In this document: positions 1-62,092 of the stretch, piece after piece
How positions within the stretch are numbered: the first letter of the stretch is position 1
Layout of the letters: each line of letters begins with the position of its first letter
Source: Sycon ciliatum
Lineage: Eukaryota > Porifera > Calcarea > Leucosolenida > Sycettidae
NCBI RefSeq assembly: GCF_964019385.1
Contig: NC_088649.1
Location: forward strand, 22,350,435-22,414,434
Direction: 5' to 3'
Length of the DNA stretch: 64,000 bases
Program-made: the position numbers and the translations under genes
The notes under the pieces: model-generated
What the model saw: the letters and a program-made list of their open reading frames with translations, nothing else
Told to the model about the DNA's origin: nothing
Database searches by the model: none

Positions 1-131
1 TCGTCCAGCGCAGGAACCAAGTGACCAAGTCCAACAAAGTGTTGGCTTCATGTCGAAGTCTTCGCGGACCAAAGTCACAAACAAGTACGGTCTACTGTGC
101 TGAAGCTATTAGCACTAGTCATTGTGAATGA
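1..131 (+). pseudogene. CW-WD family copy H, 3' end only, frameshifted
   Basis: The window opens inside a copy almost identical to the end of the intact gene at 25162-26298, corresponding to its residues from about 303 onward. Codons in phase from base 3 give the conserved stretch with Ala-Ser-Cys-Arg and Leu-Arg-Gly. A tandem duplication of ACAA near base 88 shifts the frame and brings in a TGA at 129-131. The intact copy has a single ACAA at the matching place. The N-terminal part lies outside the window, so only this 3' lesion can be judged. It is most likely a pseudogene. Confidence 0.85.
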
Positions 132-1229
132 TGTGTTGAGTACAAAGACTACCTCGCCACGGTTACCGTTTATCGCTGCTTCCCTGCTGGCAACAGTTCT
201 CCCGTCCAAAGTCGATTTGATCCTTCGCCACGGATGAGCCTCTTTTCCTGATGTAACCCCATGACTAAAACAATCACTATGACGCAAATTTGTTCGCTCC
301 TGAACACATTTCTTGTACCGTGCGCTGCGAGGAGCCTTGTATGGAATTGTCGAAATGTGTATGCTCGGATGTGTATGTAGTGGAGGGAGGGGGGGGGGGG
401 CGGGAGAGGCGTGTACATGTGTAATATTTGCAAGTGCAAGTGGGTGTGTAGTTTTCGTGTGTGTATTATTGCCTTCCAAAGTGTAAATGTGCATAAGCAA
501 GAGGTATAGACGCAACCATCAAAGGCTGCGTATATAGTCGCTCAACCACTTCCCAATTTAATTGTTTTAATTATGACACGGATTGTCTATCTTTAGGAGA
601 GTTTTACTTGCACAATCATCTGTTTGTCCCTCTCATCCCTCTTTCGTTTCTTACCTTCTGTTTTTATGTTGCAGCACTTCGTCGTGTAGCCTTTACTCTT
701 TCACTTCTCTTTATTTTCGCAATTGGGTCAATCCACAGTCTACAAAAATACACATTTTGTCATATTTCTGCTCTCCTTTTGCCATTTCTCACAAACAACC
801 ACTCTCTGGAAAGCTATTGATGGCAGCTATGCACTCGTAGAAACTACAACACTGAGCGTCATTCGTGTGTGCAGCTCCGTGATGGAGAATACTTTTTCAA
901 ACTCAAACAAATTTGCGCACCGCGATCTATCACGAGCGGCTTACCGATTTGGAAAATCGCGGCTCATAGAAACCAGACGAAGTACTGGTGAAAATGCCTA
1001 TAATCCGAAGGATTTCCAGCCCCAAAACGCATAGGTGAGCGAGAAGATATCAGAGTTATTCTCAGCATGATGGCAGTTCACAGGCTTGCTTTGCAGCCCC
1101 TACTCTCCCTGCTGTTTTGCTATTGTATACTCTGTTGTCTTCTGCCCTTCAGAAGAGTACGTTGTGAACCTATTAAAAAATAAATAAAAGAAAAATGTTT
1201 AATTGCGCATTTTTGATCCCACACTAGTT
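132..1229. other. Duplicated 3' flank of copy H, no gene seen
   Basis: This stretch matches 26200-27270 closely by eye, including a G-run near 388-400 and an A-rich end near 1172-1196. Short open frames occur in both copies, but they differ by indels and show no recognisable domain. I see no gene here. Confidence 0.7.
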
Positions 1230-3091
1230 TCAAGCTTCGTCGTCATTATTATATTAATATTTATTCTTCTTTTACTAGGGAATTTCCAACAGGCGTCAGC
1301 GCCTTTTAACAGGGAGCCGTAGGTGTAATTTGATGGATGACCGAAATTCATCTGGTGAACTGGACATTCGGCAAGCCGATGGAAGTGTATTCCACCTGGC
1401 AGCGCCCAAATAAGAACTTGCACTAAAGCCATATTGGGTGTTAGCGGGGGGGGGGGCAGAACGAGAGCAGCAGAGACTTGGCAACGGGTGGTGGCTGCAG
1501 TGTGAGAACCATGGGCGCGCAAGGTAAGGCGGTCTCGCAGAAGAGGACTTGCAAGTCCATCCAGGCAGTGGTAAACAAATACATAGGTTTTGAAGTTGAG
1601 GCGTTTCTCAAGGACGTACAAGTTAGTATGACTGTATGGAAGAGTGGTAGGAGTCATTATATCCAACGAAAATATTCTCATTAATGCTACGGGGCTAGCA
1701 GTAAGAAGCTTGTAATATAGAGTTTGTGATAAGCAATGAATACATGCAGTGCTGCCAAACTCAAATGTGGACTGATTGATCGATAAATAGAAGAGTCGTT
1801 TGCAAAAATTGCTCCGAACTTCCTATTGACATTTGCACATACTGCCTCCAATTAGGTTGAGAAAGACAGATGTTCGTCAACCAGCATTCCGAAATATCAA
1901 GCGTGAGCAGATGGGACTATGGAAGTGCCCCGCAGCTGACTGCGGTGCCAGGTGGCAACTTCGTGCCTGGTCGCCGGAGCCGGACAAACTGAGTCTTGGA
2001 CGGGTTTAACACCAGTCCATTCCGATCTAGGAAGCGATCCAGAGCCGCAAGGTCATCACTCAGCTGGGTTGCGATGATCTGGATGGACTTGTGCCTGATA
2101 TAGAGTGTGATATCATCGGCATAATAGTTGATTCAATGTATGTTCAAAGCACTGTGGTGCATCACGGGTGTAAATGCAAAATAGCAATGGATCGAGCACG
2201 GAGCTTGCAAACTAAGCAAGTGCAGTGTCAGCAATGCCAAGCCTCTTCAACTCATCGATGAGCTCTTGATGCTTAACTCGGTCAAAAGCTTTGCTCATAT
2301 CTGCAAACACTAAGCCGCAGTACTCGTTGTTATCGAGGACTTTGAGCCATTGGTCGACCACTAGCGCTAGGCAGTCCTTCCACGAGCTGTTGGTACGGTA
2401 GGCAAATTTATTGTCAGGCACGTAAATGATGTTGTGCTACTTAAAAGAAGACAATCAGCTGCTCCAAGACAACTCGTTCCAATATCTCGCTGCATATGGG
2501 CAGTAATGAGGTCGGTCTGTAATTAGTAGAGCTTTCTGCATCGCCTGATTTGAAAACTGGCTTGACTGTGGAATTCTTAGAAATATCTGGTACGCACCCT
2601 GCGCTCAGAGATTTATTTATAATATCAGTGAGAAAAACTGCTATGGAATCACGACCATGCTTCAGTATTGCAAGTAAGACGTTGTCAGAGCCAGGTGATT
2701 TACTTGTGTTGGTTGCTTTGAGCAGTGTGGTGATGTCCACCACAGTTACTGGTCGAAAATGGGACAGTCAACCAGCAGTAGTTGACTGTTGGGTGGCTGG
2801 CCGTAAACATAAATATGTCAACAGGCCGGCTTGGATCGTGCACGATGTTAGCAAATGTCTCTGTCAGACTACTGGGAGACGCAATTGGTGGATTTCTTAC
2901 TTTCCGCCTGCCAGACAGAATGTTAAGAAGAGGCCACTGACCTTTAGGATTTCGTCGGGAAGCCGAGAACTGGTGCATCAGGAAACCGAATTTCAGTCTT
3001 CTACTCAGAAGCGTACCCTCGCGTATTACAGACCGATACTGTTGCTTAAGAACCATATTCCCAGGCTGCGAAAGGACTCCGTCGTGCGGGC
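1230..3091 (-). mobile_element. Non-LTR retrotransposon fragment, reverse transcriptase and C-terminus (duplicate 1)
   Basis: On the minus strand, 2743-2441 and 2421-2212 encode reverse transcriptase blocks: Ser-Pro-Gly-Ser-Asp, then Asn-Tyr-Arg-Pro followed by Ser-Leu-Leu-Pro, then Phe-Ala-Asp-Met-Ser-Lys-Ala-Phe-Asp. The catalytic Tyr-Ala-Asp-Asp lies at 2123-2112. The C-terminal stretch with Arg-Trp-Asn-Thr-Leu-Pro lies at 1484-1296. Frames are broken between blocks, once at the G-run near 1445-1455. The 5' side runs into the scaffold gap, and no endonuclease domain is visible. The layout fits the Jockey/CR1 group, but the clade is not certain. It is the duplicate of 27310-29190 and is inactive. 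Confidence 0.85.
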
Positions 3092-3291
3092 NNNNNNNNN
3101 NNNNNNNNNNNNNNNNNNNNNNNNNNNNNNNNNNNNNNNNNNNNNNNNNNNNNNNNNNNNNNNNNNNNNNNNNNNNNNNNNNNNNNNNNNNNNNNNNNNN
3201 NNNNNNNNNNNNNNNNNNNNNNNNNNNNNNNNNNNNNNNNNNNNNNNNNNNNNNNNNNNNNNNNNNNNNNNNNNNNNNNNNNNNNNNNNNN
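3092..3291. other. Assembly gap, 200 N
   Basis: Exactly 200 N bases, probably a scaffold gap of arbitrary size. To its left is the duplicated LINE, to its right the upstream flank of copy E, so distance across it is unknown. Confidence 0.99.
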
Positions 3292-3654: not shown

Positions 3655-5000
3655 AGGATCATCCATCCTCTGAGGGGAGGATTATTCCTTTCCGCTCCCA
3701 TTAAGAATGCATTCAACTTAGTTTTCTGTTTTCTACGAAGAGAGGAAAGAAACATGCTGTCCTAACGAATTCCAAAAAAACAGAAAGAGAATAGGTCGAA
3801 GCGAATTGAGTCGAACTTTGTTCCTCCACCCGTTGTCACCATCATGCTACCGCTGATGTTGGCGATGCTTAGTGTGAATGTCGAGACTGTTGATTCTGGA
3901 GTTATGCCTGCTGTTGAGTGGGACGGATCGGTGTGCTTGGCGATACGGAACAATCTGCAAGCGGGAACGATGAGAAAAATCTGCAACTGGAAAGATATCC
4001 GGCAGAGCATGTTCTTCCTTACAATAGAATCTATACTGTCAGAAATACATGCCTGCAAATCATTCTGGGCGGACAGCCCAACGCTTGTGAAATTTTACTG
4101 CACTGCTGTGGGGATGTTTGCGTGGAATGTGGACAGGCATAGGGGGCCCTATTGTGGGCAACCATATTTTACCTTCGCAACTTGTCGTGAGCGTGTAAGC
4201 TATCACGCAGAACGTCTCATTTCGCTGTGCTCGTTGAAGTGTCCCATCTCTACTGCACAAATGGAGCTGGTTGCGCTATTTCACGGAATAGGAATGTGAA
4301 GTGTCGTCACCATCTTGAACTAAAAGTGGTGCTTTTTCTACTTGCGCATCCGCCATCTGCTGACGGCACTGATCGCTACCCCTTCAAAGCGTATCCACTG
4401 GACGCAACGAGTGCAGAACGACTCTGGCGATATTGAGAGTAGGAGTTGAGAGGAGAAAGCCATACCATATATGTTGGACTCAGTAGAGCGTCCAGCCCCT
4501 ATATGATGTCCAACCCCTATATAGAGTCCATTGGTCCAAAATCCACTGTACAGAGTCCAAACTTGAAATCAACTGTGAGCTCAAAGTTTCGATGGACATC
4601 ACTCCCTGTATAGAGTCCAGCCAATTGGCTTCACCCCTATATAGAGTCCATTGGTCCAAAATCAACTGTACGGAGTCCAAACTTAGAAATCAACTATAAA
4701 GAGTCTTTATGTGGACTACACCCCCTGTATAAAGTCCAGCCAATTAGGCATCCCCTATCGAGTTCGAAAATAGACATAGGATCTGCTGTAAGCAGTGAAT
4801 ATTAACCAGAATGCGGTCTCTCCCTTTAATCCTTTACATCATTCACTTCTCAAGATAAAAAAATATGTATTGAGGCACCACTGCAGCCACTTCATTACAT
4901 GAAAAACCCTACAAACACCATCCTCAAATCAAGTGGTCTCTTCGCAGACGCTGCAAATTACAATATCTCAATCATGTGGTGTTGCCAAATTATTGTGCAC

Positions 5001-5155
5001 GCACACACACATGCACACACCCACACAACGCCAAGAAAATACCTAGAAAAAAACCAAGAATCGAAAGAGAATAATGGAGAGCCCAGGATTAATTATTTGT
5101 TTTCAAATTATTGTGCGCGCGCACACACACACACACAAACACACACACACAAACT
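5001..5155. repeat. CA-rich microsatellites in two blocks
   Basis: Two CA/CACA tracts lie at about 4998-5026 and 5118-5152, separated by a partly repeated segment. The shared words are AAATTATTGTG and ACAACGCCAAGAAAA, so the surrounding 120 bases are themselves duplicated. Confidence 0.8.
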
Positions 5156-5865
5156 TATACAACGCCAAGAAAACACCAAGAAAAGAGTAGAGACACAATA
5201 CACACGCAACTCCAACAGCCATGCAAACGTCCACCCATTTACATGTAAAGTCAAGAGGGATAACAAATAATTATACGAAACGAATGCGTACGGGGACAGG
5301 TACACGCACGTTTACATACACGTAGTAGTTTAAGAGAGTAACATAGTGCAGTGGTGAGCATAATACTAGCACATGCTGAGAGTGCAATAGCAAGCTTCAC
5401 CATTGCTCATGGCCATGCAAATGTTCAGCAGCACTCAGTTCCGCAAGCTTCTGAAGATCAGCACACCTGCAACAAATAGATAGCACAAGGATACGCTTAT
5501 TACCGTAATGATGCATGGGAGCACACAACTACCAAGTTCTCAACGAATGTGATGCTCAATGAAAATCAATCCACTCAAAGACCTGTGAACAGGTGATGGT
5601 GTGGACAATAATCTATTAGTAATATGAGGAATAAGATCGTTTGTGCACACTCAAGACGCACAGACACACCAACATACATGTAGTGTACACAGTGTTTCAC
5701 TTCACTGCAACTAAATTGAAATGAGATGATTTGAACAATCTGTACAGCGTTGCTGTCAGTCAGTCTTCCCCAAGATGGAAATGCAATGATTTGTTGTCAC
5801 GTGGCAGTTTCACTGACACAATGTCATGTTCGTGACATCAAAATGGTTACTTCAGGGAATACGAG

Positions 5866-6232
5866 TATTAGCAAGAGTGCATAAACAAGAGTATGCAACT
5901 GTGGTTATGGGTCAGTGCGTGGCGCGCTGCCTTCATTATGTAACTTGCCTTCATCACGCTCTGAAAGCATGCATTCAAACTCACAATTTCTCGTACGAGC
6001 CCATCTGTTTTTGCTCGATTCGTTCAAGTACCTACGCGATCTCTAAATTCTGGCGCGTGAACTCCAGTTCCGTACGAAAGTTCATTTCAAACCAGAGGAA
6101 GAGTGCGGTGTTTGATTTTCCGCAGTGCGCGGACAGCAGCTGAATGATGTAATGAAGGCAGCGCGCCGCGCATCTGGTCCATAGAAAAGAGATCACAGTT
6201 GCATACTCTTGTTTATGCACTCTTGGTATTAG
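5866..6232. repeat. Inverted repeat, possible nested MITE
   Basis: Arms of roughly 80 bases at 5866-5943 and 6148-6232 are inverted copies sharing GCATAAACAAGAGTATGCAA and CGCGCTGCCTTCATTA. About 200 bases lie between them, with no coding frame I recognise. The whole sits inside the 4472-7373 element. Confidence 0.7.
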
Positions 6233-6689
6233 CTTGAGAAGCTTTTTCTTGTCATTGGCATACAAGCAATCCTCCTAGTCCTACTACTACTAGTACACTG
6301 GCACTGCGTTTGTGGATCCCATTGTATTTGACATCATACTACAGGAAGAGTGTCGTGGAGTTCACATAATTATCACAGGGATAAAAATACATTTCTCATG
6401 AAATAAAATAATAATTGATGATAGCTAGACGATCATATACGATTGATGCAAAGTCCTTGCAGTCCTTGAGGACTATTACGAAGTGGTTGATTACTTTTAG
6501 GGCATTCATTCAAGCAACATCAAACAAACGCGATACGCTCCTTGAAAATGGAAAACAAATTCAAGCATAACGACAGAACAGCCCAGCAGACCAATCGAAA
6601 CGAGTAAAAGCTTCCTTACCTCAGTCATCGTCCTGCCATGTAGTTGGACAGCCTTTTGACACGGTGGTACAGGCAGCTCTTGTCCAGTC

Positions 6690-6965
6690 AAACAGGGGTA
6701 TCCTTGTGGCGTCGAACGGAAGAGAGTGTCAGTGTATCTGACTCGTCAGATTGCAACTGTGCTGAACTTTTCTCTTTCTCCGCTTTCTGCTTTCATCCTT
6801 CGCTCTGATGAAACCGTTCAAACGTCTTACTGGCAGCAATGGCCAGCCAAACAGGGGATCCTTGTGGCGTCGAACGAAAGAGAGCGTCAGTGTACCTGAC
6901 TCGTCAGATTTGAACTGTGCTGAACTTTTCTCGTTCTGCAATTTCTGCTTTCATCCCGCGCACTG
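6690..6965 (+). repeat. Two tandem units of about 161 bases
   Basis: The segment beginning AAACAGGGGTATCCTTGTGG near 6690 recurs with changes near 6851. Both units include the words CGTCGAACG and GACTCGTCAGATT. Confidence 0.8.
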
Positions 6966-7638
6966 ATGAAACGTCTTCAGAGAACCACAAGACGCTTTCC
7001 AGATTTGATTTTGAACGTCTCCTTATCCTCCTTGGTTAGCTCGAGACAGATTACTGTCAGCAACTGCACAGCAGAATTGGCAGCCATGGCTGAAGTGAAG
7101 AAAGGAATGCGCTGCCACGAGGCAAGCAAAACTGAAAATGTGTACTCTTTCGGGCACAACACACAGGACGGCGTGACTGGATAAACTGGACTCCTGGACC
7201 GTGAATAGGGGACTTGTAGAAAAAGTGTACTCCTTATAGGGGATTGCGCGGCAGGATGAAGCTGATCAAAACTGAGTGGACTCCTGGACTCTGTATAGTG
7301 GATTTTGGACCAATGGACTCTATATAGGGTGCTGGACATCATATAGTGCATGGACTCTATACTGAGTCCTACATATACACGCCTGGAAAGTGGAAAATCG
7401 ATTACTCTGGAAGATTTAGGTTCGAGGGTCGCTACATCTGTGGTTTTGGATATGCTGCAACACTGGCTTTTTCGTCTTCAAAGGCTACGTCAGCGAAGTT
7501 GGGCAAGGAAGCGATTTAAAATTCTAGCGACTACTTTCTTAAATGAGTTGACCAGCCGTGGTGGAGATGCTCTCTGCAGCATTATGTGTATCCGATCTTC
7601 GAACGTTTTAAGCGGACTGCTCTCCTGAGGTCATAAGC

Positions 7639-7864
7639 AGCTTTTCTTTTTTTCTTTTTTTAATAAGGCCACCGCTTCCAATCATGACATGCAAAGCAGC
7701 AGTGCAGCGCCGCAGGCATGAATCGTGGACGTGGTGACGGAGTCTGATGTGCTCCGCTCACCTAGGGTCTTGGCTTCACTGCACAGCAAACGCGTCGAAA
7801 GAAAATGGGGGGCTTATAATTATCGGGAGATGGGGAGGGGGGGGGGAGAAAAGAAGAGAAGATG

Positions 7865-7908
<44 letters not shown>

Positions 7909-7910
7909 CA

Positions 7911-7941
<31 letters not shown>

Positions 7942-8076
7942 AGAGAGAGAGAGAGCTGGAATATAGAAGAGCACAGTGCTCTTGGTGATGGGGACTGTGA
8001 AGGATAGCAGGTCCTGGGACACCTGCATGAGAATCTGAATGTTGGTGATGATGGCAGCAGGGTTATAAGGTAAGCC
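7639..8076. mobile_element. Insertion of about 440 bases in copy E, with a GA microsatellite
   Basis: Comparison with the intact copy C shows extra sequence between the codons after the CTGAGGTCA site and the TCTCTTGCAGTGGACTA site. The insert holds a pyrimidine tract at 7639-7660, a G-run near 7838 and a long GA/GACA tract at about 7866-7955. Open frames rich in Glu-Arg here are products of that microsatellite. The element type is unknown. Confidence 0.7.
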
Positions 8077-8261
8077 GAAATGTCTCTTGCAGTGGACTAA
8101 GTGGAAAACGCACACAGATCTGCAGCACCGTTTTGCGCCTGCTGAGACTAGTTATTGTGCCCGAAATTACCACCGTGAAATACAAACTGCCGCGTTTAGC
8201 GTTTGTGATTCTCTCCACTCTGAACACTTTCCTGCCGTGCGCCGTGCACAGGCTTTTGTGA

Positions 8262-11773: not shown

Positions 11774-11781
11774 TATAAAGG
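11774..11781 (+). promoter_or_regulatory. TATA box of copy C
   Basis: TATAAAGG lies 107 bases before the ATG at 11881. The same word precedes copies E, F and G at the matching place. Confidence 0.6.
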
Positions 11782-11880: not shown

Positions 11881-13074
11881 ATGCTGCCCGAACGAATTCC
11901 AAAGGAACAGAAAGACAATGGATCGAGGCAACTTGAGTCGAACCTTGTTCTTCCAACCGTTGTCACCATAATGCTACCACTGATGTTGGTGATGCTTAGT
12001 GTGAATGTCGATACTGCTGATTATGGAGTTATGCCTGCTGCTGAGTGGGACGCATCGGTGTGCTGGGCGAAACGTACCAATGCGCAAGCGGGTACGATGA
12101 GAAAGTTCTGCAGCTGGAATGATATACGGCAGAGCATGTTCTGCATTACAATGGAAGCTATACAGTCTGAAAAAAACGCCTGCAAGTCAGTCTGGGCAGA
12201 GAGCCCATTACTCGTGAAATTTTACTGCATCGCGGTGGGGGTGTTTACGTTGAATTTCGAGAAGCATAGGGGGCACTATTTACGGTCAACAAATCTTAGC
12301 TTCGCAACTTGTCATGAGCGTGCAAGCTATCACGCAGAACGTCTCATTTCGTTGTGCTCGTTGAAGGCGAAAGTGTCCCATGTTTACTGTTCGAATGGAG
12401 CCGGTTGCAGTATTTCACGTCATGTTAAATGTCGTCACCATCTTGAACGAAAAGTGGTCCTTTTTCTACTTGCGCATCCGCCATCTGCTGACGGCAATGA
12501 TCGCTACCTCTTCAAAGCGTATCCACTGGACGCGACGAGTGCAGGACGACTCTGGGGATGTTGGGAACAGGAGTTGAGAGGAGAAAGCCATACAATATAC
12601 AAGCCTGGTACGTGGGACATCGATTCGACATGCGTTGACACTCTGAAAGATTTAGGTTCGAGGGTCGCTACATATGTGGTTTTGGATATGCTGCAACACT
12701 GCCTTTTTCGTCTTCAAAGGGTACGTCAGCGACTTTGGATAAGGAAGCGATTGAATATTCTAGCGGCTACTTTTCTACATCAGTTGACCAGCCTTGGTGG
12801 AGATGCTCTCCTGCAGCATTATGTGTATCCAGTCTTTGAACGTTTCAAGCGGACTGCTCTCCTGAGGTCACAAGCAGCTTCTAGAAATGTCATCGTCTCT
12901 TGCAGTGGACTACGTGGAAAACGCACACATGTGTACAGCACTGTTTTGCGCCTGCTGAGGCTGGTTATTGTGCACGAAATTACTACCGTGAAATACAAAC
13001 TGCCGCGTTTAGCTTTTGTGATTCTCTCCACTCTGAACACTTTTCTGCCGTGCGCCGTGCATAGGCTTTTGTGA
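11881..13074 (+). CDS. Secreted cysteine-rich CW-WD family protein, copy C (intact)
   Basis: An uninterrupted frame of 397 codons, family not recognised. The N-terminus has a polar stretch and then a hydrophobic segment at about residues 22-43, so it is either a signal peptide with a long n-region or a signal anchor. An internal ATG at 11971 would give a 367-residue form with a standard signal peptide. Cysteines lie at 61, 77, 88, 101, 116, 144, 159, 170, 176 and 184. The signature follows as Cys227-Trp-Glu, Trp245-Asp-Ile-Asp and Cys251-Val-Asp. The C-terminal block has Val-Ser-Cys-Ser-Gly-Leu-Arg-Gly. The predicted character is largely helical, with many basic residues. The upstream ATG is preferred because of TATA spacing and because copy D has only that one. 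It is the sole intact member of its subfamily here. Function is unknown. Confidence 0.88.
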   Translation: MLPERIPKEQKDNGSRQLESNLVLPTVVTIMLPLMLVMLSVNVDTADYGVMPAAEWDASVCWAKRTNAQAGTMRKFCSWNDIRQSMFCITMEAIQSEKNACKSVWAESPLLVKFYCIAVGVFTLNFEKHRGHYLRSTNLSFATCHERASYHAERLISLCSLKAKVSHVYCSNGAGCSISRHVKCRHHLERKVVLFLLAHPPSADGNDRYLFKAYPLDATSAGRLWGCWEQELRGESHTIYKPGTWDIDSTCVDTLKDLGSRVATYVVLDMLQHCLFRLQRVRQRLWIRKRLNILAATFLHQLTSLGGDALLQHYVYPVFERFKRTALLRSQAASRNVIVSCSGLRGKRTHVYSTVLRLLRLVIVHEITTVKYKLPRLAFVILSTLNTFLPCAVHRLL

Positions 13075-14870: not shown

Positions 14871-14882
14871 ATCTCCCGAGAA

Positions 14883-15660
14883 GCATCTCCACCACGACTG
14901 GTCAACTCATGTAGAAAAGTAGCAGGAAGACTTTTAAATCCCTTCCTGACCCCACTTCGTTGACCTGCCCTTTCGAGACGAAAAAGCCAGTGTTGCAGCA
15001 CATCCACAAGGACAGATTTAGCGACTCTCGAACCTAAATCTTTCAGAGTGTCGACGCATGTAGAATCGATGTACCACCTTCCATGCGTGTATAGGGTATG
15101 ACTCTGGTCTTTCAACTCCTGTTCCCAACATCCGATTCCGTGAAATGCCGCAGCCAGCTCCATTCGTGCAGTAAAGATGGGACACTGTGGACTTCAATGG
15201 GCATAGCGAAATGAAACGTTCATGACAAGTTGCGAAGCTTAAATTAGTTGACCGCAAAAAGGGCCCCCAATGTCTCTCCAAATTCAACGCAAACATCCCT
15301 ACACCGATGCAGTAAAATTTCACAAGCATTGGGCTGTCCGCCCAGACTGACTTGCAGGCGTGTATTTCGGACTGTGTAGCTTTCATTGTAAAAGCAGAAC
15401 GTGCTCTGTCGGATATCATTCCAGTTGCAGATCTTTCTCATCGTACCCGCTTTCACATTGGTCCGTATCGCCCAGCACACCGATGCGTCCCACTCAACAG
15501 CAGGCATAACTCCAGAATCAGCAGTCTCGACATTCACACTAAGCATCACAAACATCAACGGTAGCATTATGGTGAAAACGGGTGGAAGAACAAGGTTCGA
15601 GTCAAGTCGCTTCGATCTTCGATCGTCTTTCTGTTTGTTTGGAATTCGTTAGGGCAACAT
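14883..15660 (-). pseudogene. CW-WD family copy F, truncated and frameshifted
   Basis: The frame can be followed from the ATG at 15660, which meets a TAA at its fourth codon, or from the internal ATG at 15567. It runs into a frameshift near 15390 and a deletion of about 45 codons before the signature. The signature then appears at about 15130-15050 with Cys-Trp-Glu and the invariant spacing, although the Asp after the second Trp is Tyr. The gene ends abruptly at about 14883, short of the C-terminal block. It is the inverted counterpart of copy C. Confidence 0.9.
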
Positions 15661-17710: not shown

Positions 17711-18042
17711 TTATGGTTGATAATAATGGGTCTCCGTGTGAAGACATCCAAGAAGAAGATTGCCTGATGAGTCCAGCGGGGACGAAACGTACGTCGCAAT
17801 CGAGCTATGTCGTTGCTGTGTCATCTGCTATGTGCCATGCACTACTTGATGTACCAGCCTGCTATGCCGGATACCGCCAACCATGCATCGACCAGGCGCC
17901 AGGCGCGAACTGATGGTGGTGGTGGTGAGAAGGAGAGCTCTGTGCCAGAACTGTGCAGCCTAGAGAGCGTGTGTGGGCAGGCGTGTGTTTACCGCCATAT
18001 TGCCAGGTGTGTCTTTACCACCATTATTATCAACCATAAGCT
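17711..18042. repeat. Inverted repeat around the hammerhead motif
   Basis: CTTATGGTTGATAATAATGG near 17710-17730 is matched by its reverse complement near 18021-18041. The hammerhead motif at 17758-17801 lies between the arms, which recalls the inverted terminal repeats of Penelope-like elements. No coding frame is recognised up to 18418; a short AAACAAACAAACAA tail is near 18378. Confidence 0.6.
17758..17801 (+). ncRNA. Type I hammerhead ribozyme motif, well preserved
   Basis: Stem I is GATTGC at 17758-17763 pairing with GCAATC at 17796-17801. The core CTGATGA follows at 17764-17770. Stem II is GTCC and GGAC around the loop AGCGG. Then comes GAA and a self-complementary ACGTACGT as a loopless stem III, and the cleavage site after C17795. 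Very short stem III is a known feature of hammerheads in Penelope-like elements, which work as dimers. All core bases are present. Confidence 0.85.
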
Positions 18043-19640: not shown

Positions 19641-19795
19641 GCGCAAGAAACGTGCTGATGTTCAATCAAGTCTTGTAGAAATTCGTGCACACAGACAGGG
19701 GCCAACGATATTGACTTTCGGAGGCCTTTCTTGTCACGCGCCTATCCTATTTTTTCCGATGAGTCGAAGCAAATATGCTGCCACTGTGTGCCAGA

Positions 19796-19803
19796 TATAT
19801 AGG
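19796..19803 (+). promoter_or_regulatory. TATA box of copy B
   Basis: TATATAGG lies 83 bases before the ATG at 19879. The spacing agrees with copies A, I and J, which helps choose that ATG over an in-frame one upstream of the box. Confidence 0.65.
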
Positions 19804-19878
19804 CCGAGCGCTGTGCTTATGAAGTCAGTTCGACACCATCAAGAAGTTGTCGCTTGCACAATTGGCAAGACATTGATT

Positions 19879-21027: not shown

Positions 21028-21665
21028 TGCGTGTCATCGCCCAATTACAGCTCATTACCACATTCCTATTGTAGTAGCATCTACAACGAAACATGAATAA
21101 TTCATCTTCCAGAATATGGAACCACTGCCTATAAGGTTAGAATAACACCACGCGCAACGCGATCCATCCTCTTTTTTCAGTTATCTCACTATTACCCTCT
21201 TGGCTAGAGCGGGTATTATGAAACTGGTCAATCGGTCTGTATTCCGTGTCCTCACCTAAATTACTCTTTCGTAGTGTAATGTGATTTGCCCCTCAATATT
21301 CAAGTGCTTCCAAATCATAATTATCATCATCTGGTTTTCCAGTTTGCAAATCTCGATCTCTGTCTTTCTCTGTTGGCCTGGCTGACTGCCTGTGGTTCTG
21401 TCTGTCGCTCTATCTCTCTATCTCTCTCTTTCCTCCAAGTCTCTCCCAGTCTTTGTATGTCTCTTGCCAGGGAATTCTCGTATTCATTTTTCTTCCTCTC
21501 CATCTATAAGACGAATGGAGGACCAAGGAAGTAAAAGTAAAGTTACACTGTCCACTAGCACCACCAGAGTCCTTGGCTCTTCACCCGAGTCTAAATCCTC
21601 TACATCACACATACTTACGAGTGCTCTTGTAGCAGTTGAGCACGCTCATATGGGGTAGTGCATTC
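21028..21665. other. 3' flank of copy B, no gene
   Basis: It contains a CT-rich tract near 21400-21445 and nothing I recognise as a gene or element. Confidence 0.6.
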
Positions 21666-40704: not shown

Positions 40705-40712
40705 CTTTTATA
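40705..40712 (-). promoter_or_regulatory. TATA box of copy J
   Basis: Minus-strand TATAAAAG, with the first T 83 bases before the ATG at 40629. Confidence 0.7.
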
Positions 40713-44783: not shown

Positions 44784-46009
44784 ATGATGGCTGATCGAAT
44801 TCCCAACAAACAGAAAGACATTGGTTCGATTCGACTTGAGTGGAAGTTTGTTCTAACACCCTTCATCGCCATACTGCTACCACTGATGTTGTTGATGCTT
44901 AGTGTGAACGCCAAGCGTACTGTTTCCGAAGACGTGCCTGTAGGGTGGGATACATCAGTGTGCCGAGCAGCAAGAAGCAGTCTCCAAGAGGGTACACTGA
45001 ACACATTCTGCAACTGGGATGATATCCGGCACAGCTCGTACTGCCTAACAATGGAAGCTCTGCAGTCAGAAATGCGCACCTGCAAGTCAGTCTGGGTTGA
45101 CAGCCCACTGCTTGTGAAATTATACTGCACCATTAACGGTATTGCTATGTGGAATTTGGATAAGCACTTGTGGCACTATTTACGGTCAACCAATTTTAGC
45201 TTCGCAACTTGTCATGAGCGTGTAAACCATCGCGCGGAACGTATCATTTCGCTGTGTTCAATGAAGTCCAAACTGACCCATCAATACTGCGCGAATGGAG
45301 CCTGTTGCGCGAATGCAGGGCATCGGAATGAGAAGTGTCGTCACCATCTTTACCGTAAAATGTTCCTTTTCGTACTTGCGCATCCACTACCCCCTGATGG
45401 TTCTGATCACTATCCATTCAAAGCGTATCCACTGGACCCAGTAAGTGCTAGACGACTCTGGGGATGTTGGGAACAGGAGACGTAAGCCGTACCCTATACA
45501 CGCGTGGAAGGTGGGACATCGATTCTACATGCATCGACACTCTGAAAGATTTAGGTTCAAGAGTCGCTAAATCTGTCTTTGTGGATGTGCTGCAACAATG
45601 GCCAATTCGTATAAAAGTAAAAAGGCCATACAGTGGGTACAAGAAACGATTAACGCGTCTGGCGGCTACCTTTCTACAGGAGTTGATCAGTCGTGGTGGA
45701 GATGGTCTCATGCAGCATTATGTGTATCCAGTCTTTGAACCTTTCAAGCAGACTGCTCTCCTGAGGTCACATGCAACTTCTGGAAATGTCATCGTTTCTT
45801 GCAGTGGACTACGTGGAAAACGCGCGCAAACCTACAGCACTGTTTTGCGGCTGCTGAGACTAGTGATTGTGCACGAAATTACCACCGTGAAATACAAACT
45901 GCGGCGTTTCCCGTTTGTGATTCTCTCCACTCTGAACACTTTTCTGCCTTGCGCCGTGCATAGGCTTTTTGTGACCTCGTGTAATAGCACTTCAAGCTTT
46001 CCTCTGTAG
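44784..46009 (+). pseudogene. CW-WD family copy D, single frameshift
   Basis: The first 233 codons run from the ATG at 44784 through a hydrophobic N-terminus, the family cysteines and Gly-Cys-Trp-Glu-Gln-Glu, then stop at 45483. Comparison with copy C shows a 7-base loss just there. The frame starting near 45464 continues with Arg-Trp-Asp-Ile-Asp-Ser and Cys-Ile-Asp to the end. A second change, one extra T near 45969, moves the stop 12 codons later. Everything else looks maintained. The copy is either a young pseudogene or an assembly error. Confidence 0.88.
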
Positions 46010-47165: not shown

Positions 47166-48035
47166 TCTAGGGCGGTATTATTTTTCAGCTTTTTGAGATC
47201 ATTATTGAGCGTTCGCGGGAGCGTTGTTTTTGGGCGTCCCCTAAAGCTGGGGCCGTTACCCCCTAAGAAGTAAGCTCCCATGGCACGTCTGGATGGAGCT
47301 GCCTCTTCCAAACGCAGCACATGACCAAACAGCCTCCATCTAGCATCTCTGATGATTTGGCTCACGGGGCGAGATTCTGTGCGTTTATACAGGGAAGTGT
47401 TCTTTATTATGAGCGGGTATTTAATGCCTATCACTGGTCGCAGCTGCTGCCTGTGGAACGAGTCCAATTTCCGCTCCTGTGTCCCCGTGAGGCTCCACGT
47501 GCCACAGTTATAAAGCAGGATTGGTAGAATGAAGCTATTATAGAGGCGCACTCGTAGAGACTCTCTGATATTGCCTATGCTGTTGCTCATTAGGATTTGG
47601 GCAAATTCTATCCTTCGCTTTCATATAACTGGGCCAGGAACCCGTTTGAACTTGCGAAGTAAAATAAAAATCAATCAATCAATCAAAAGATCTGATGTGT
47701 TGCCCTCTCAGCCATATCACCCACATCCGGTGAAGTGCGCTTGTAGCCAACCGCTTTCGTCTGCCTATGTCCTTATCCACTCCAAGCATCGAGCCCAGCT
47801 TTATTGTGTGTCGCCACTGTTCCTCTATTCGATCCTTTTGTCTGCTTATCATGGTGTGTTCCGTCTTCCCCTCATTCATCTTCAAGTTCCACTCTGCTAA
47901 CGAAGAGGATATTGTAGGAAGGCAATTGGTTTTTATTATTTCAGTTAATCGACGTGGAGACAACAATTTTATAATAGCAATAAAAAGAACAAATTCTGCA
48001 GTCATCGCCACACTACAACGAAGTCATGTAAGTTT

Positions 48036-48077
48036 ACCAGAATTAATTTTCTTGTCACATTCATCAGTGGAAAGTCG
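48036..48077 (-). ncRNA. Hammerhead-like motif in the left arm
   Basis: Reverse-complement counterpart of the motif at 48905-48945. It has the same core, so the two arms carry the motif facing outward and inward. Confidence 0.45.
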
Positions 48078-48904
48078 TGACTGAAGAGTAACCATGCTGA
48101 ACAATGATTAAATATACATTCAATGATGTGTTACGAGAACAAAATACAGTGCCAAAATAGAAAGAGGGAAGGTGAGACAATAGCAGTGAAGTGAGAGCTA
48201 AGTGCAACGGTGGGTGAAAAACTAATAATTATAACGCTAAAACTGTGTAGTGAGACAAACAATCATGCTGTGCACCTACGAAAACAATTTTAACGCAACT
48301 ACAACAACAATGGTAACAAGTTGCCATCAAGATCAAAGGAGGAGTCAACGAACAGAGGTTAAACAACGTCAAACGAGCCTGGGACCGATCAGTGTTGATG
48401 AGGAGAATGACACGGAGGACGACACTGAGGACGAGTTGGGAGATGAAACGGAGGACGAGATTGCGGTTGTTGGAGACGAGGAATCAGATGGTGATTGTGA
48501 TCGTAAGAAGTCTGCCGTTTTTCTTCACTTGTTGTCTCACCCTAAGTGTCTGCAGGTGTATGATGATTTTAGTTTTTCTGTTCTTTGTCGTGCACGGTAT
48601 GCTAGTCAGTTGAAAGTACTTGAGGCTGTTTGTATTCGTTTGCATAAGCCTGATCTTTGTAAGCAGAAGAAACATGTAGTTGCGTTAAAATTGTTTTCGT
48701 AGGTGCACAGCATGATTGTTTGTCTCACTACACAGTTTTAGCGTTATAATTATTAGTTTTTCACCCACCGTTGCACTTAGCTCTCACTTCACTGCTATTG
48801 TCTCACCTTCCCTCTTTCTATTTTGGCACTGTATTTTGTTCTCGTAACACATCATTGAATGTATATTTAATCATTGTTCAGCATGGTTACTCTTCAGTCA
48901 CGAC

Positions 48905-48945
48905 TTTCCACTGATGAATGTGACAAGAAAATTAATTCTGGTAAA
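48905..48945 (+). ncRNA. Hammerhead-like motif in the right arm
   Basis: TTTCCA pairs with TGGTAAA allowing one bulge (stem I). The core CTGATGA is at 48911-48917. A weak stem II lies in ATGTGACAA. GAA and the palindrome AATTAATT form stem III, then the cleavage C at 48938. The plan equals that of 17758-17801, but stem II is poor and activity is doubtful. Confidence 0.5.
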
Positions 48946-49329
48946 CTTACATGACTTCGTTGTAGTGTGGCGATGACTGCAGAATTTGTTCTTTTTATTG
49001 CTATTATAAAATTATTTCAGTTCGTTGCCTTAACAGTACAAAGTACAAATATCAAGAGGGACGAACGAAAAGAGAAAATAAAACATAGCAGAGAGAAAGA
49101 TGCAACTGAAAGGAAAGAAAAACGGAGAAGGAATGTGGACTGGGCGGATTCATGAACCATTACTAGAGCAGGGCAATGCATGAACAGCAATCTTTTAGAT
49201 ACTTTTGGTCGGTACTGATGAAGTCCACATCATCTGCATATTCCGACTCTCCCGGCAGAAGCAGCTGGACGTCTCGGTCTGGTCGCGGCGGTAGACGGTT
49301 TCGTACCTCTCTTAACGCAGCTTCCAGGT

Positions 49330-51998: not shown

Positions 51999-52016
51999 TG
52001 GTAGCTTGAGGATGGT
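51999..52016 (+). promoter_or_regulatory. Primer-binding site, initiator tRNA-Met-like
   Basis: TGGTAGCTTGAGGATGG resembles the reverse complement of the animal initiator tRNA-Met 3' end, TGGTAGCAGAGGATGG, with one inserted base and one mismatch. It lies 9 bases after the LTR. Confidence 0.65.
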
Positions 52017-53409
52017 TGAGATCATCGTTTGCCCTTTGACGTGCCTTGTGCTCCTGGCCGCTACTGCTCTGCTATACGCCGCTTTCCGTGAGATCCGCCG
52101 CCCTCGGGACAACGTGGCTGCTACAGTTGGACGACATCAATCACCTGCTACATCAAGCTCAAGTCCTCCGGATCTAGCCCCGTGTCGATCGCGTTCTCTC
52201 TCCCTGACAAGCCCGAGCGTCAAACGCGTTACCAGAGAACCAAATGTTTTCCATGGCAACCCTTCCGAGTTCAAAGAGTGGGTATTTACGGTCGAGTTAG
52301 CCTTGAAGTGCTCACCTCAAGGTGACCCGGAGAGCCAAGTTAACTTTGCGGCTAGCTACCTCGCTGGGAATGCGCGTCTTTGGCTAATTTCTTCCATGGA
52401 AGCAGGTGAGCAATTTTCGGATTGGCATTCTTTGAAAAGCGCCCTAGCGCGAGTGTATGGCCCGTACTATGACGGGGAAAGAGTGCGGTTGGATATGTTC
52501 TCTATCCAACAGCGTGGGTCAATTGAATCGTACGTAACGGAGTTTTCTCGGCTAAGTTTACAGGTGCCGGAACTTGACGAACTCTCCTGAGCCTTGCTAT
52601 TTGTCAACGGCCTGCACGGTAACATGCGGACCTTGGTAGTGAAGGAACACCCCACTACACTGTCAGCCGCCGTTCAGGCAGCGCTAGCAGTCGCCTCAGA
52701 CAGCCGATTTCAGCGCAGACCACCACTGGCGACCGCGCCGGGATTCGCACCACCATCAGGTAGCAGAAAGCTAACAAAACTAAGCCCCGAGGAACGTGAG
52801 ACATTACGAGCCCAGGGGGGGCTGCTTCGCATGTCGTCGACCAGGCCATATGGCCCAGAATTGCCCACAGCATCGAGATCACCCAAACGGTGGACGTCAG
52901 TAAGGCCGATGCGATTACTGACGCAGCAAGAAAAGGCATCACCTGCGTGTAGTGTGTGCTCCGTCTCTACCCGTAACCGATTCAGTAGCCTCGCTGTGGA
53001 GGATGTTGACGATGATGCTGAATGCTCCGAAGCCAATTTCAAGCGAGATGTTACACCAACTATTGAGGCCCAGGTTACCAGCGTCAATGTGGAAACGGAA
53101 CATGAGCTCCTGCGTGTAGAAGGCAAAATCAACGGTCGTCGCGCGCTAATGTTAATAGATTCGGGCTCGACCCATGATTTCATTGCCGAACAGTTTGCCA
53201 GGAGAGTTAACCTGCCAACCGAAATTGGCTCGGAAAACCTGAATGTCACGCTGCCTGATGGAGCATCAAGCTCGTTTCCCATGGAGACGACCCATGAATT
53301 GAAGGTTATCGTAGGCGACTTCAGCGATAACCAAACCTTCACGGTGTTCCCCCTTCATCGCAATGACGCTATATTGGGGAAACACTGGTTAACGCGTAAC
53401 AATCCGTAA
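52012..53409 (+). pseudogene. gag and protease region of the LTR element
   Basis: The frame opens at an ATG at 52012 with a hydrophobic start, then the capsid-like segment with Trp-Leu-Ile and Ile-Glu-Ser-Tyr-Val near its end. A TGA at 52588-52590 interrupts it, with the same frame continuing; a CGA to TGA change would explain it. A zinc knuckle of the Cys-x2-Cys-x4-His-x4-Cys type lies in another frame at 52823-52864, just after a G-run at 52815-52821. The protease is back in the first frame, with Leu-Ile-Asp-Ser-Gly-Ser near 53154-53171. A 10-base tandem duplication near 53397-53415 then ends the frame. It is non-functional as it stands. Confidence 0.85.
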
Positions 53410-53446
53410 CAATCCAGACATAAACTTCCGGACGAATGAAGTCAGG

Positions 53447-53910
53447 TTGAACTCGAATGGTTCGCCTTGTGCGTCGCCCAGTCAAAGCGAACCGACCGCT
53501 CCTGTGGAGGCGATGTTCATATCTGGTCGTCAGGCTAGGCATGCTCTTAGGAGTGGAGACGAAGGTGTTCTGGCGTGGGTCAGCGTAGAAGACGGCATTG
53601 GCAAGGAACCTCCCGACAAATCCACTCAGAACGAGCACCCAGATCTCAAGACCATGTTCCGTGACTATGACGATCTTTTCCCGGATGATCTGCCAGCTAG
53701 ACTCCCACCAGAGAGGTCTGTAGACCACGAAATCCGCATCACCCCCATCGCGACCTGCCTATCGCCTGCCCAGGCCAGAAATGGACGAATTGCAGAAACA
53801 GCTCACAGAACTCTTGAAAAAGGGTTTCGTAGAACCAAGTAAGTCCCCCTTTGGTGCACCGGTGTTTTTTGTCAAGAAAGCTGATGGTTCGTTACGCATG
53901 GTCTGCGATT
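53447..53910 (+). pseudogene. pol, start of reverse transcriptase (before the SINE)
   Basis: The frame from 53447 holds the linker with Phe-Pro-Asp-Asp-Leu-Pro and Leu-Pro-Pro-Glu-Arg. It shifts near 53770 and continues in another frame with the [10 protein letters not shown] motif to 53909, where the SINE begins. Confidence 0.85.
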
Positions 53911-54217
53911 AAGTAAAGTAAAGTAAATTATCGTATCCGTTCCCGAAGGGAACTCACGACGGCCGCTAACACCCGATAAACCCTAGCGGCAGATGCAGCG
54001 CCTAACGTTGGGGGTGAGTGGGTAAGTCTCACAACCACTGGCACAAGTGCCGAGAACAACCCCATTAGCTGCATCCATGTACCCCTTGTGCCTGGCCACA
54101 AGTTCCCAGTTGACTGTGGGTAGCAGCACGGCTGGAAAAACCGCTCCCAGGCAGGACTTGAACCAGGTACCTCTCGTATCTCAATCATGGTCTTTGACCA
54201 ACCCACTGTGCCTGCCT
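53911..54217 (-). mobile_element. tRNA-derived SINE, full length, inserted in pol
   Basis: A 10-base duplication GTCTGCGATT lies at 53901-53910 and 54218-54227. Read on the minus strand, the head has an A-box-like GCACAGTGGGTTGG and a perfect B box GGTTCAAGTCC at 54164-54154. A conserved body follows and a tail of TTTAC repeats. Relatives are at 38775-39005, 41518-41656, 57899-57953, 63660-63795 and 21790-21838. B box and tail together support a Pol III SINE using a LINE's machinery. Confidence 0.93.
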
Positions 54218-54227
54218 GTCTGCGATT

Positions 54228-55655
54228 GGAGGGATCTAAACAAGATAACTGTTAAGAACAAGGCGTGCTTGCCCAATGTGGATGATTTATTCGATGCCGT
54301 ACAGGGCGCTAGTTACTTCACGAACCTAGACTTCCGATCAGGGTATAATCAGATTCGCATTCAAGCTGAGGACGTGCCCAAAACCGCGATTAACACTCCC
54401 TTTGGGCATTACCAATTTAGGGTCATGGGATTTGGTCTCACCAATGCACCGGCAACATTTCAATCCATGATGAATACGATTCTTCAACCATATCTGAGGG
54501 AGTTCGTAGTCGTGTTCCTAGATGACATACTCATCTTCAGCAAAACGTGGTCGGAGCATATGCAGCATGTCCGGTCGGTATTGAGCGTGCTCCGGGACAA
54601 CCAGTTATTTCGCAAACGGTCAAAATGTGAATTTGGCGCGGAGAGTGTGCTGTTCCTGGGACATTGCATCGATGGACTGCACATCGCCCCTGACCCAGAC
54701 AAGATTGCCGCAGTAAAGGTCTGGCCCGCTCCGACTTCCGTCACAGAGGTGAGGCAATTTCTTGAATTTACGAATTATTTTAGGCGATTCATAGATCAAT
54801 ACTCATCGCTCTCTAAGAACGTAGAGGAGATAACGGGAAAACATGCACGATTCGAGTGGAACAGCTCTCGGCAACATGCCTTTGAATCGCTAAAGCATGC
54901 CTTGTTGAATGCGCCCCTATTGCGGCTGGCTGATGTGAACCGACCATTCAGAGTGGTAACAGATGCAAGCCATTTCGCCTTGGGATGTGTTCTTCTCCAA
55001 GAACTAGAGGAAGATGCCTGGCATCCAGTGGCTTATGCTAGCCGAAAATTGTCTGCTGCTGAACAGAATTATACAGCTACAGAAAGAGAAACATTGGCCA
55101 TAGTGTTTGCGCTAAAGACCTGGCGCATCCACCTCTATCAACACTTTGTGGTCATTACAGACAACATGGCGGTAGTTTATCTGAAAACAAAACCAAGCAT
55201 TACAAAGAGAGAGGCGCGATGGGTTGAATTCCTAGCTGACTATGACTACACAGTCCGTCACAGACCCGGCAGAGAGAACCCTGCAGATCCCCTTTCGCGT
55301 CGCCCAGATCTCCATGAGAGGAACCTCGTGGAGAATGCAGTACCACGTTTGAATGCTATTGAGTATGCTTTAGCAATGAATGATGACGTGTCCAATACAA
55401 TATCAGATGCCTACCAGAGAGACAAAGAGCTAACTCCCATCATAGAAAGATTGAAGCATTCTCTCCGAGATAATTTGCATGATCGCTATTATTGGGACGA
55501 ATCCACTGATCGCTTGTATCTCAAGGCATCCCCCAATAACCGGTTGTGCATACCACAGTGCGGTGTCCGGTTAAAGCTCATTCAAGAACACCATGAGTGT
55601 GCAACGGCTGGCCACCCGGGTCGTGATCGAACGTACTTCCGCCTAGCACGTTTTT
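54228..55655 (+). pseudogene. pol: reverse transcriptase, RNase H and start of integrase
   Basis: Open from the SINE duplication to about 55650. The reverse transcriptase catalytic block is Phe-Leu-Asp-Asp at 54515-54526. The Thr-Asp-Ala-Ser block of RNase H follows near 54958, and the integrase zinc finger begins with His-His-Glu-Cys near 55589. A T-run at 55651-55655 shifts the frame. Confidence 0.92.
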
Positions 55656-55668
55656 CTACTGGCCCCGA

Positions 55669-56835
55669 ATGGGTCTCGATATCAAGAGATTTGTCAAAAC
55701 CTGTGATCTCTGCCAGCGAACGAAGGGAGGTCAGCCACGAACAGGGCTTCTCCAGTCACTTCCAATACCTAATAGTCCTTGGCAGGATATCTCAATGGAT
55801 TTTATTGTTGGATTGCCCCTTACTTCTCGTGGCTTCGACGCAATTTACACGATTGTGGACCGACTTACGAAATGCGTACATCTTGTTCCAACAAACTCGA
55901 AGATTGATGCTAAGGGCAGCGCTCAACTGTACATTCAAAACGTGTTTCGTCTGCACGGGCTGAGCTCGACCATTGTTTCCGATCGCGATCCACGATTCAC
56001 TGCAGCTTTTTTCAAAGAAGTATTCTCTCAGCTAGGAACTAAATTGGCATTCAGCACTGCTAACCACCCTCAAACGGATGGTTTGACAGAGAGAGTTAAC
56101 CGGCAAGTGGGAGATGTTCTAAGAGCATTTGTGAACTTGAGACAGGACAATTGGGATTCGCTTCTACCACTCAGCGAGTTTGCAATAAATAGTTCACAAC
56201 AGTCATCTGTAGCTAATACACCGTTCTATCTGAACTATGGGTTTGACCCTAAGTCCCCGCCCGAATTCATTCTTACGGGAGGGGAAAGGAGTGATTCGGT
56301 CGATTGGCTTCATGAGCAGGAAGCCGCACTAAGGATAGCTCGAGATGCAATGCTCGACGCCCAGGCAAGGCAAGCTCTATACGCAGACCAGACGAGAACG
56401 CCCAGTGATTTGAAGGTTGGTGATAGCGTTCTTGTCTACAGAGAGTTTCTACTGACCCCGGAAGCTCGTGGCCAGCCCTCTCGGAAGTTGCAACCCAAGT
56501 GGTTTGGTCCGTATCGTATCCAGGCTAAGATTGGAGCGAATGCTTTTCGCTTGGAACTACCCCGTGAACTTCGCTGCCATCCCGTGTTTAATGTCACTCC
56601 TCTTAAACGCTACGAAGAGAACACGATTCCTGGAAGACACCAACCCCCGCCTCCGCCCTTCACAGATCTAGATGGACACACACGCTATGTTGTCGAAGCC
56701 GTTTTGAATCACCGACTCCGCAGTGGTGAGCAACACTTCCTGGTGCATTGGAAGGGTTACCCCAGCAGCGAAGCTACGTGGGAGCCCGCTGGCAACCTAT
56801 GTGATGAGTCTGGTCGGAATATTAAACCGCTGTAG
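55669..56835 (+). pseudogene. pol: integrase core and chromodomain
   Basis: The frame after the shift has Cys-x2-Cys at the finger's end, then the core with Met-Asp-Phe-Ile, Ser-Asp-Arg-Asp and Gly-Leu-Thr-Glu. A chromodomain lies at about 56686-56800 with Tyr-Val-Val-Glu, Val-His-Trp-Lys-Gly-Tyr and Ala-Thr-Trp-Glu-Pro. The chromodomain places it among chromoviruses. It is open to its own stop, but severed from the upstream part. Confidence 0.92.
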
Positions 56836-59473: not shown

Positions 59474-60299
59474 TTAGAATGCGTCACACAGCCCTTCCTT
59501 GTACAGGGTGTTGAGAAGCGACATTTCCAGCACTGAAAAAAGTCCGTGATGCTGCAATGCCAGCTCATTTGCCATCATCAAACTCACCACCAGGTTGACA
59601 GATCTGATGACGTCATCACGTCGCCCTTTTAGCTTGCAGAATCCTCCCTTAAGCGCAGCCTCTCCCTGCACGTGACTTCGTTTGGCTGCTTCCATTTTGA
59701 ATCTTCGTATTATTGTTCGAAATTCGATTTGCAGGAATGAGCTGAGGTGGAACTTCACGTAACCTGTGGCCATCTTGAATGCGAAAATAGCTAAAGGGCT
59801 TGAGTGCTTTGAAACGTTGTTTTTGATGGCAGTGACCTGTATGGTACGATTGGTGGCAGATATAAGCGCCTTTCTGAACACAGAGGCCACAAGATCGATG
59901 CATCGCGAGTCCACGTCCCAACGACCGTGTCGGCTATACAGATATTCGCCTGCCCGTAAATCCGGTTCCCAGCACGGCAGCGGAGCAGATCCACCAGGGT
60001 TTGAGAATAACATATCCTGCTGCCGCGAGAGCATGTGTAAGGAAAGTTTGGCTTGGAAAACGGGAGCGAGTGGGTGGCGCACTTTTGCCGTCGTTGCCAG
60101 GCTCCCAATTCGAGGCTTAAGTGGACGATCCAGTTCACATTGCATGATAGTCTGACGGGCTATGTCGAACAGCTCTTTCTTATTCGTGCAATTCGGGAAG
60201 ATGACGCTTGCGTTGATCAAGGGATTGAATCGAACGTATTTGTACATTTTGATAAATGAGGCATCGGCAGCAAGAACCGGGGTCCTGGCGATTTTTCAA

Positions 60300-61485
60300 A
60301 ATGCCAATATTTGCGAAAAACCGAACCTATGTCGTTTTTTTGTCACTGCGATCAAAGCGGAAAGACTTCTTGCGATATCGCTTTGAAAGTGCTTTCCTCT
60401 TGGTGGCTTCGCTATAATTTGTTGTCATTGCAGTTGTAGTTTATCCGCCAAGCACTTGGGACGTCAAGGTAGGCGCTTTCAGCCACCATGGAGGCGTTTG
60501 CGCTCTGGGTAGCGTCTGCAAATCATGCGCTGAAAAGAGAGCGGAACAAATAATTTCTTGGCGGAACGATCCCGTCACGAATTCTTGATGGAGCACGAGC
60601 GACTAGAATATTTGGCAGCTGGATCTCCAGAGATACTCCGCTGCCTGTGATAGTCCCCCGCAAGAAGAATCAGGTGAAAGTGAAGAGGTTTCGCTCAGAT
60701 GACAAGCCATCAGCGGAGGCAGCGCAGACGACGAGTTTGAGAGCTCCGTGACACGAAGTGGCGACGCAGACAGCAGCGCTGAGAGTGACGAACGAGATTC
60801 AGTACTCCGTGGCGACTATTCGCAGCTGGATAAGTTGGTGAGATACGGAGACAGCCCTGAATGAACTAAACCTTACTTGATACAAGATATTTTGTGAATA
60901 AAATTGTTGCAAGTATACATGCACGCTTGCGGTGCGCATGAAATTTGTCACAGTATTATACATGTATCTACGAGCTGCTGTGCATAGGAGAGCAAGACAT
61001 GCTTGGTGGATGTATCTGGCTTGGCCCAGCATGCATATCTAGTCTTGTCCTAAGTAAGTTGCAGATTCTTCCCAGCCATGTAAAACGTCAGTTGCTTGGC
61101 TTCTTTCTGTCTGGCAAGTCTGCATACAACACCAGACCTGCACATGACAGGGATTGAGTTTTCAAGTAACATTGCAGCAAGTGCAGGCAACAATGTTACT
61201 ATAATATCAACTAGAGTACGCTGTGCTTCCCTGAAGACCTATAAATATGCTAAATTGTTCTCAGTCACTCCATTAGAGCTAGCTGTAACTGCGTTCCATT
61301 TTGCCTTTTTGCTGACCATTTTTGTTGACCGTCACCCAGCATTTCGGGCGTTCTTTTTACCATCTTGGAAGGTGCCCAGAGCTCCAAAATTTGGCCCATA
61401 GATCACTCATTTAGTGGACAGTTCAAAGCCATCAAAAACTCATTTTTGCCAAATATCACCTAACCCTGGTTTTTGCTGCCCATGC
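60300..61485. mobile_element. Unidentified segment splitting copy K
   Basis: About 1.2 kb that copies I and J lack. A plus-strand stretch near 60487-60860 has frames rich in Glu, Ser and Arg reminiscent of a transposase N-terminus, but broken. I cannot find terminal repeats, so its nature is unknown. Confidence 0.45.
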
Positions 61486-61560
61486 CTCAAATAACAATGG
61501 TAGCAAAATACAGACTTGATCTCTGGCCTCTTCTATTCCTCTCTTGCACTGAGATTTTTC

Positions 61561-61594
61561 GTTCTAGCTTTCTAGCTTTTTCGAAGCTAGAACG
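61561..61594. repeat. Perfect 11-base hairpin in copy K
   Basis: CGTTCTAGCTT and AAGCTAGAACG flank a 12-base loop. It lies where the frame of copy K breaks. Confidence 0.9.
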
Positions 61595-62092
61595 ATGGTG
61601 CAGTACGATAGTTCTGCCACATCATGTGAAGCACACCTCTTTGATGGAGAGCCACTGCTGGTGTTGCTGACATTGGCAGTGGAGTTTCTGAGGTTCTGAC
61701 TTGAACTGGGTTTGCAGCAGGTCCTCCTGCTGTTCGCATTGCTGATCGGATCGTGTTGGGCGTTACCGCTGCTGTTCTTCATGTCGCCAGGACAGGTGTA
61801 AATAAGAAACTCATTCGTACTGTACGCGTTGTTCGGATCACCAACACTGATCGCATCCATCGACCTAACGCAAGAGGTGATGGATACCAGCGTAGCAAGT
61901 GAGATCAGCGCAGGTGAGACCTTGTTATAGGGCCAAAGAAAAAACAAATTTCTCAGCTGCATGCTGATAATCAGGTCCAACGTCTGTCAAGTTCACACCT
62001 ACAACTATGGGGATGCTTTTTAGTACTCGATTTCAGCATCGAGAGAAGTGGTATTATCGTTTAGACAAAGACCAACACAAAACTTCGACCCA

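Follow-up and report, generated by a model that had tools for sequence, protein, structure and literature searches.

We analysed a 64,000-nucleotide stretch of the genome of the calcareous sponge Sycon ciliatum (hereafter the window; NC_088649.1, positions 22,350,435 to 22,414,434), which sits on contig 8 (C8) of a 538-Mb assembly in 313 contigs and carries repeated copies of an intronless gene family whose cysteine-rich products are probably secreted. An initial annotation of this DNA had listed eleven family places, five intact and six broken, and all were recovered when a profile built from the six frames collected first was run against stop-to-stop pieces and when their proteins were used in tblastn searches. 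The intact members, named here by their lower coordinate, lie at 11881-13074 (+ strand, 397 amino acids (aa)), 19759-21027 (+, 422 aa counted from the first ATG), 25162-26298 (+, 378 aa, the copy used for structure modelling), 31780-33000 (-, 406 aa counted from the first ATG) and 39487-40629 (-, 380 aa). For two of these a start other than the first ATG is more likely, namely at 19879, ahead of a hydrophobic segment, in the 19759 gene and at 32913 in the 31780 gene.

The broken copies are in various states of decay. At the left edge, 3-234 (+) is the 3' end of a copy of the 25162 type (84-98% identity to the 25162 product by tblastn, and profile pieces); it has a frameshift near its end, and its remainder lies to the left of the window, from C8:22349510 on. 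Those of the 11881 type comprise a copy at 3754-8258 (+), found by tblastn as frameshifted pieces at 3754-4472 and 7356-8258 about 2.9 kb apart, a copy spread over three frames at 14882-15660 (-, tblastn and profile), an N-terminal fragment at 21650-21991 (-) and a frameshifted copy at 44784-46009 (+) in the overlapping frames 44784-45485 and 45464-46009. The last, at 59474-61962 (-), is split into an N-terminal part (61489-61962) and the rest (59474-60292). The N-terminal piece is the weakest of all, with an expectation value (E) of 0.3 against the first profile; because it aligns with the sister copy L022 over 172 residues at 60% identity (E 9e-59), we assign both pieces to one split copy.

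The family is held together by a conserved core. Across the six reading frames of the window, C-W-x16-W-D-x4-C has six exact matches, one in each intact copy and one in the split copy, compared with a single match in all of 30 mononucleotide shuffles (0.03 per window), a lenient control that preserves composition only. When 34 intact members of 371-436 aa were aligned, mean column identity was 27%, and C-W-x16-W-x5-C was found in 34 of 34. The Cys-Trp motif, the Trp at +18 and the Cys at +24 that had been proposed from the window are thus borne out, but the Asp said to follow that Trp is not invariant, 7 of the 34 members having Glu or Asn instead. Six columns are invariant (C46, C205, W206, W223, C229 and R306, numbered as in the 25162 product), and each member has 10-17 cysteines, in keeping with the many cysteines first noted. 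Several of these come and go together: C62 co-varies with C102 (phi coefficient 0.92), C73 with C369 (phi 0.82) and C258 with C277 (phi 1.0, five rows), and the six rows that lack C62 and C102, four from the 9.1-Mb cluster of contig 3 and two from the 25.6-Mb cluster of contig 10, carry a replacement Cys pair (phi 1.0). Such paired loss and replacement is the pattern that disulphides would leave.

The N-terminal hydrophobic segment described initially was also seen beyond the window. In a crude hydrophobicity scan, which placed the strongest stretch beyond the start in a few frames, 35 of 36 frames had a strongly hydrophobic 11-residue stretch within the first 110 codons, L049 being the sole exception, and most frames start at, or just ahead of, that stretch. 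Judged from these N-termini, the family members are probably secreted. The claim that the genes are intronless likewise holds, since all 34 aligned members are single open frames running to their stop and the beta-tubulin gene of the same genome, read by eye without a gene predictor, has four interruptions within its first ~260 codons; this control, small in that it is one gene, shows that the genome carries ordinary introns.

Upstream of four intact genes we located TATA or TATA-like elements. Their distance to the ATG is 107 nt in the 11881 gene (11774-11779, +), 87 nt in the 25162 gene (25075-25080, +) and 83 nt in the 39487 gene (40707-40712, -); in the 31780 gene a TATA-like element (CATAAATA, 33078-33085, -) lies 172 nt ahead of the likely ATG. 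Among 19 starts examined, nine have a TATA element 83-172 nt upstream versus ~1.3 expected at 60-200 nt from a background of 0.5 per kb and strand; that interval was picked post hoc, and related copies are not independent. Over the whole 350 nt upstream, TATA elements occur at 10 of 19 starts versus ~3.3 expected, with none at all in nine.

The window holds only part of the family. One protein search of the genome with the 11881 product as query returned 104 matches on contigs 2, 3, 7, 8, 10, 11 and 265, the last of which could be an alternative haplotype; these are matches rather than genes, several being pieces of a single broken copy. Counted by eye, 52 of the 104 rows lie in stop-free frames of at least 370 codons, and one further row is a run of N. 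The 52 are not all intact genes, for they include the frameshifted copy that enters the window from the left. Because a profile search of the surrounding 264 kb found eight long frames missing from the 104 matches, including the 39487 copy, the list is a lower bound. The copies are mostly concentrated in a few clusters.

Recent duplication is evident around the window. In the same 264 kb, 100 segment pairs of 900 bp or longer show similarity, a count that takes in transposable elements. The longest duplicated segment, 10,485 bp at 96.6% identity, contains the intact window genes 31780 and 39487, and the segments differ in their ends and in length, from 0.9 to 10.5 kb. Within the family cluster there is also a pair of inverted 5.9-kb copies with 99.8% identity about 1.4 kb apart (C8:22303287-22309224 and C8:22310673-22316601; L013, L012). 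In a tree of the family some window genes have their nearest kin on a different chromosome, as with the 19759 type, which groups with copies from contig 10 and contig 2; we relied only on shallow groups because the tree tool warns of long branches.

We used the ratio of non-synonymous to synonymous divergence (dN/dS) as a measure of constraint. For 57 of the 64 pairs listed, those with dS of at least 0.13, dN/dS was 0.30-0.86, with the highest values all inside the contig-3 cluster, and for the seven pairs with dS below 0.08 it was 0.64-1.39. Pooled over 11 chosen pairs the ratio was 0.62, and by region it was lowest in the C-W core (0.40), followed by the surroundings of an SCxGLRG motif (0.53) and the rest of the protein (0.62-0.80). 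The frames therefore encode constrained proteins, if loosely so. Taken together, the recent duplications and the loose but real protein constraint agree with the earlier description of an expanding, fast-evolving family.

We searched 5.8 billion proteins with three single members (in the first search the best 7998 candidates by shared words were scored), which gave 6, 4 and 7 matches, or 17 in total. Among the 17 matches listed, three are Sycon ciliatum scpid proteins in EukProt and 14 trace to this genome; seven are identical to genome copies compared, three have 97-99.6% identity, P0003, P0012 and P0013 are three further matches attributed to this genome, and P0016 is, by eye, nearly the broken window copy at 44784. 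The scpid proteins are scpid80303 (P0002; 75% identity to the query and 75% to the nearest genome copy), scpid107461 (P0006; 49% and 89%) and scpid97094 (P0015; 62% and 70%), the nearest-copy values covering only part of the copies in the genome. At 289 and 303 aa, scpid107461 and scpid97094 do not reach the length of the intact members. To the eye, P0002 is like one of two genome copies, L021:7576-8709 or L039:154-1287, in its N-terminal part and like the other at its C-terminal end, a mosaic look as would be left by exchange or gene conversion between copies. We take the scpid set and the Compagen S. ciliatum (Bergen) set to be the same. The scpid numbers are placed under Sycon ciliatum, class Calcarea, and the set is termed a transcriptome (PMC6526912), and the Compagen set is entered as a genome (PMC12419799).

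No relative was confirmed in prokaryote genomes or viral contigs by word-based search, and these searches, like those of proteins, need shared words and could miss remote relatives elsewhere. Nor did Pfam, NCBIfam, PHROGs or the PDB give a match common to the family members. The first impression of an unrecognised family is consistent with these results, which point to a lineage-restricted multigene family of many copies with matches confined to Sycon at word-search sensitivity. The model of the 25162 product is all-helical (predicted local distance difference test score 76.8, predicted template modelling (TM) score 0.77), the N-terminal part modelled alone gives the same helices, and the all-helical model had no Foldseek match at E 0.001. 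Viral model structures likewise gave no match common to the family.

Three known groups were compared with the family. GLE1 (PF07817) was scanned against 42 proteins (34 + 8) and membership was rejected, as one of the 42 passes, by 0.2 bits: scpid80303 scores 24.2 against the 24-bit cut-off over 68 of 250 positions, and a window copy 75% identical to it finds GLE1 only at E 1. Save for this marginal match, the three scpid relatives are unannotated. Interferons and other helical cytokines are secreted, helical and clustered, as is predicted or seen for the family, and intronless in some vertebrates, but the family members are about twice their size and have no sequence match to them. Interferons appear as weak rows in the Foldseek list of the N-terminal part (E 3.2 and 4.7, TM-scores at most 0.26; none at E 0.001), too weak to bear either way on a four-helix cytokine fold. 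Calcarins and galaxin-like proteins share with the family (predicted) secretion, cysteine richness, tandem duplication and occurrence in a calcareous sponge. Calcarins are reported to have 10-23 di-cysteines spaced 10-15 residues apart (PMC12419799); Cys-Cys pairs number zero in 31 of 34 family members and at most one in the others, and membership was rejected.

The analysis establishes single-exon frames of ~370-440 codons with a conserved core, cysteines gained and lost in pairs, an all-helical predicted fold and a history of repeated recent duplication and decay. Our preferred explanation, which we hold tentatively and with a little less than even confidence, is a lineage-restricted family of intronless secreted proteins under birth-and-death evolution, most likely serving extracellular recognition or defence, a role proposed by comparison with other secreted families that exist in many copies and are renewed quickly. 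Every product would be exported by the secretory route and would fold as a disulphide-stapled helical bundle, in which the scaffold stays constant and the surface changes; the protein would work outside the cell by binding microbes, symbionts or non-self tissue, and duplication with loosely constrained change would supply variants. Although sponges are capable of self-recognition and of managing their microbes, not many of the secreted proteins at work have been described, and on this question calcareous sponges belong to the groups that have received the least attention. Dozens of copies with a Cys-Trp core and no relatives found outside Sycon provide a concrete candidate set, perhaps a sponge-specific recognition or defence repertoire, and the fold, if new, would add to those of animal proteins.

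Other observations weigh against this explanation. The dN/dS values indicate loose constraint, and we do not claim positive selection; the cysteine correlations are inflated by kinship among copies; and at 10 of 19 starts no TATA element is found where one would be expected. GLE1 is by its known function an intracellular protein, yet scpid80303 passes its cut-off, however narrowly, and skeleton building, reproduction and chemical defence likewise make use of secreted families whose many copies change quickly. A bolder version, which we regard as quite improbable, is that calcareous sponges have, as an intronless repertoire of their own, secreted helical proteins of a new fold, used in self/non-self or microbial recognition and diversified by duplication and inter-copy exchange, that is, an innate system arisen independently in an early animal lineage.

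The family might instead encode skeletal or extracellular-matrix proteins of the calcite spicules or mesohyl, expanded by duplication like the Sycon calcarins. The host is a calcareous sponge, and S. ciliatum is reported to have calcarins, which are secreted, Cys-rich and duplicated in tandem, as well as three secreted proteins of the skeletal matrix that are domain-less (PMC12419799); the family may be identical with SMP1-3. The members are not calcarins, given their near absence of Cys-Cys pairs, and near-identical and broken copies in such number would be unusual for a skeletal toolkit, leaving this alternative unlikely. Reproductive genes often change fast, and the rapid change and turnover of the family would suit gamete recognition or egg or larval secretions. 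We found no specific point against a reproductive role; as general background, the copy number is high relative to known gamete-recognition families, and we rate such a role as decidedly improbable. Toxin-like effectors in chemical defence against predators or prey microbes, rather than recognition proteins, seem just as improbable: the members look secreted and are Cys-rich and duplicated, but no described toxin family or fold was matched and they are larger than most Cys-rich peptide toxins. It is very unlikely that the copies belong to a mobile element, as its cargo or one of its genes, or go back to an old viral insertion, for although they are intronless, lie in retrotransposon-rich surroundings and occur on several chromosomes, their dN/dS is below 1 over moderate divergence, the duplicated segments vary in ends and length, the copies lie mainly in a few clusters, and the members have no common match among phage families, model structures of viral proteins or viral contigs. 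Even if the function of the family proves structural or reproductive rather than recognition or defence, it would still be a clear orphan intronless family spread by segmental duplication in an intron-bearing animal genome.

The window has other features as well. A stretch of ~300 bp at 692-1000 is repeated on most large contigs at 80-93% identity and is a dispersed repeat resembling a short interspersed element (SINE-like). At 17758-17801 (+) there is a type I hammerhead ribozyme scoring 35.4 bits versus the Rfam gathering threshold of 34 bits, with no tandem array around it. A perfect 342-nt inverted repeat, with arms at 47962-48303 and 48675-49016 and 371 nt between them, is as a recent hairpin-like insertion would leave. 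Finally, 52012-56835 (+) contains pieces of a Ty3-type retrotransposon in which gag, reverse transcriptase, integrase and a chromodomain are present, so that this animal genome carries a chromovirus-like element.

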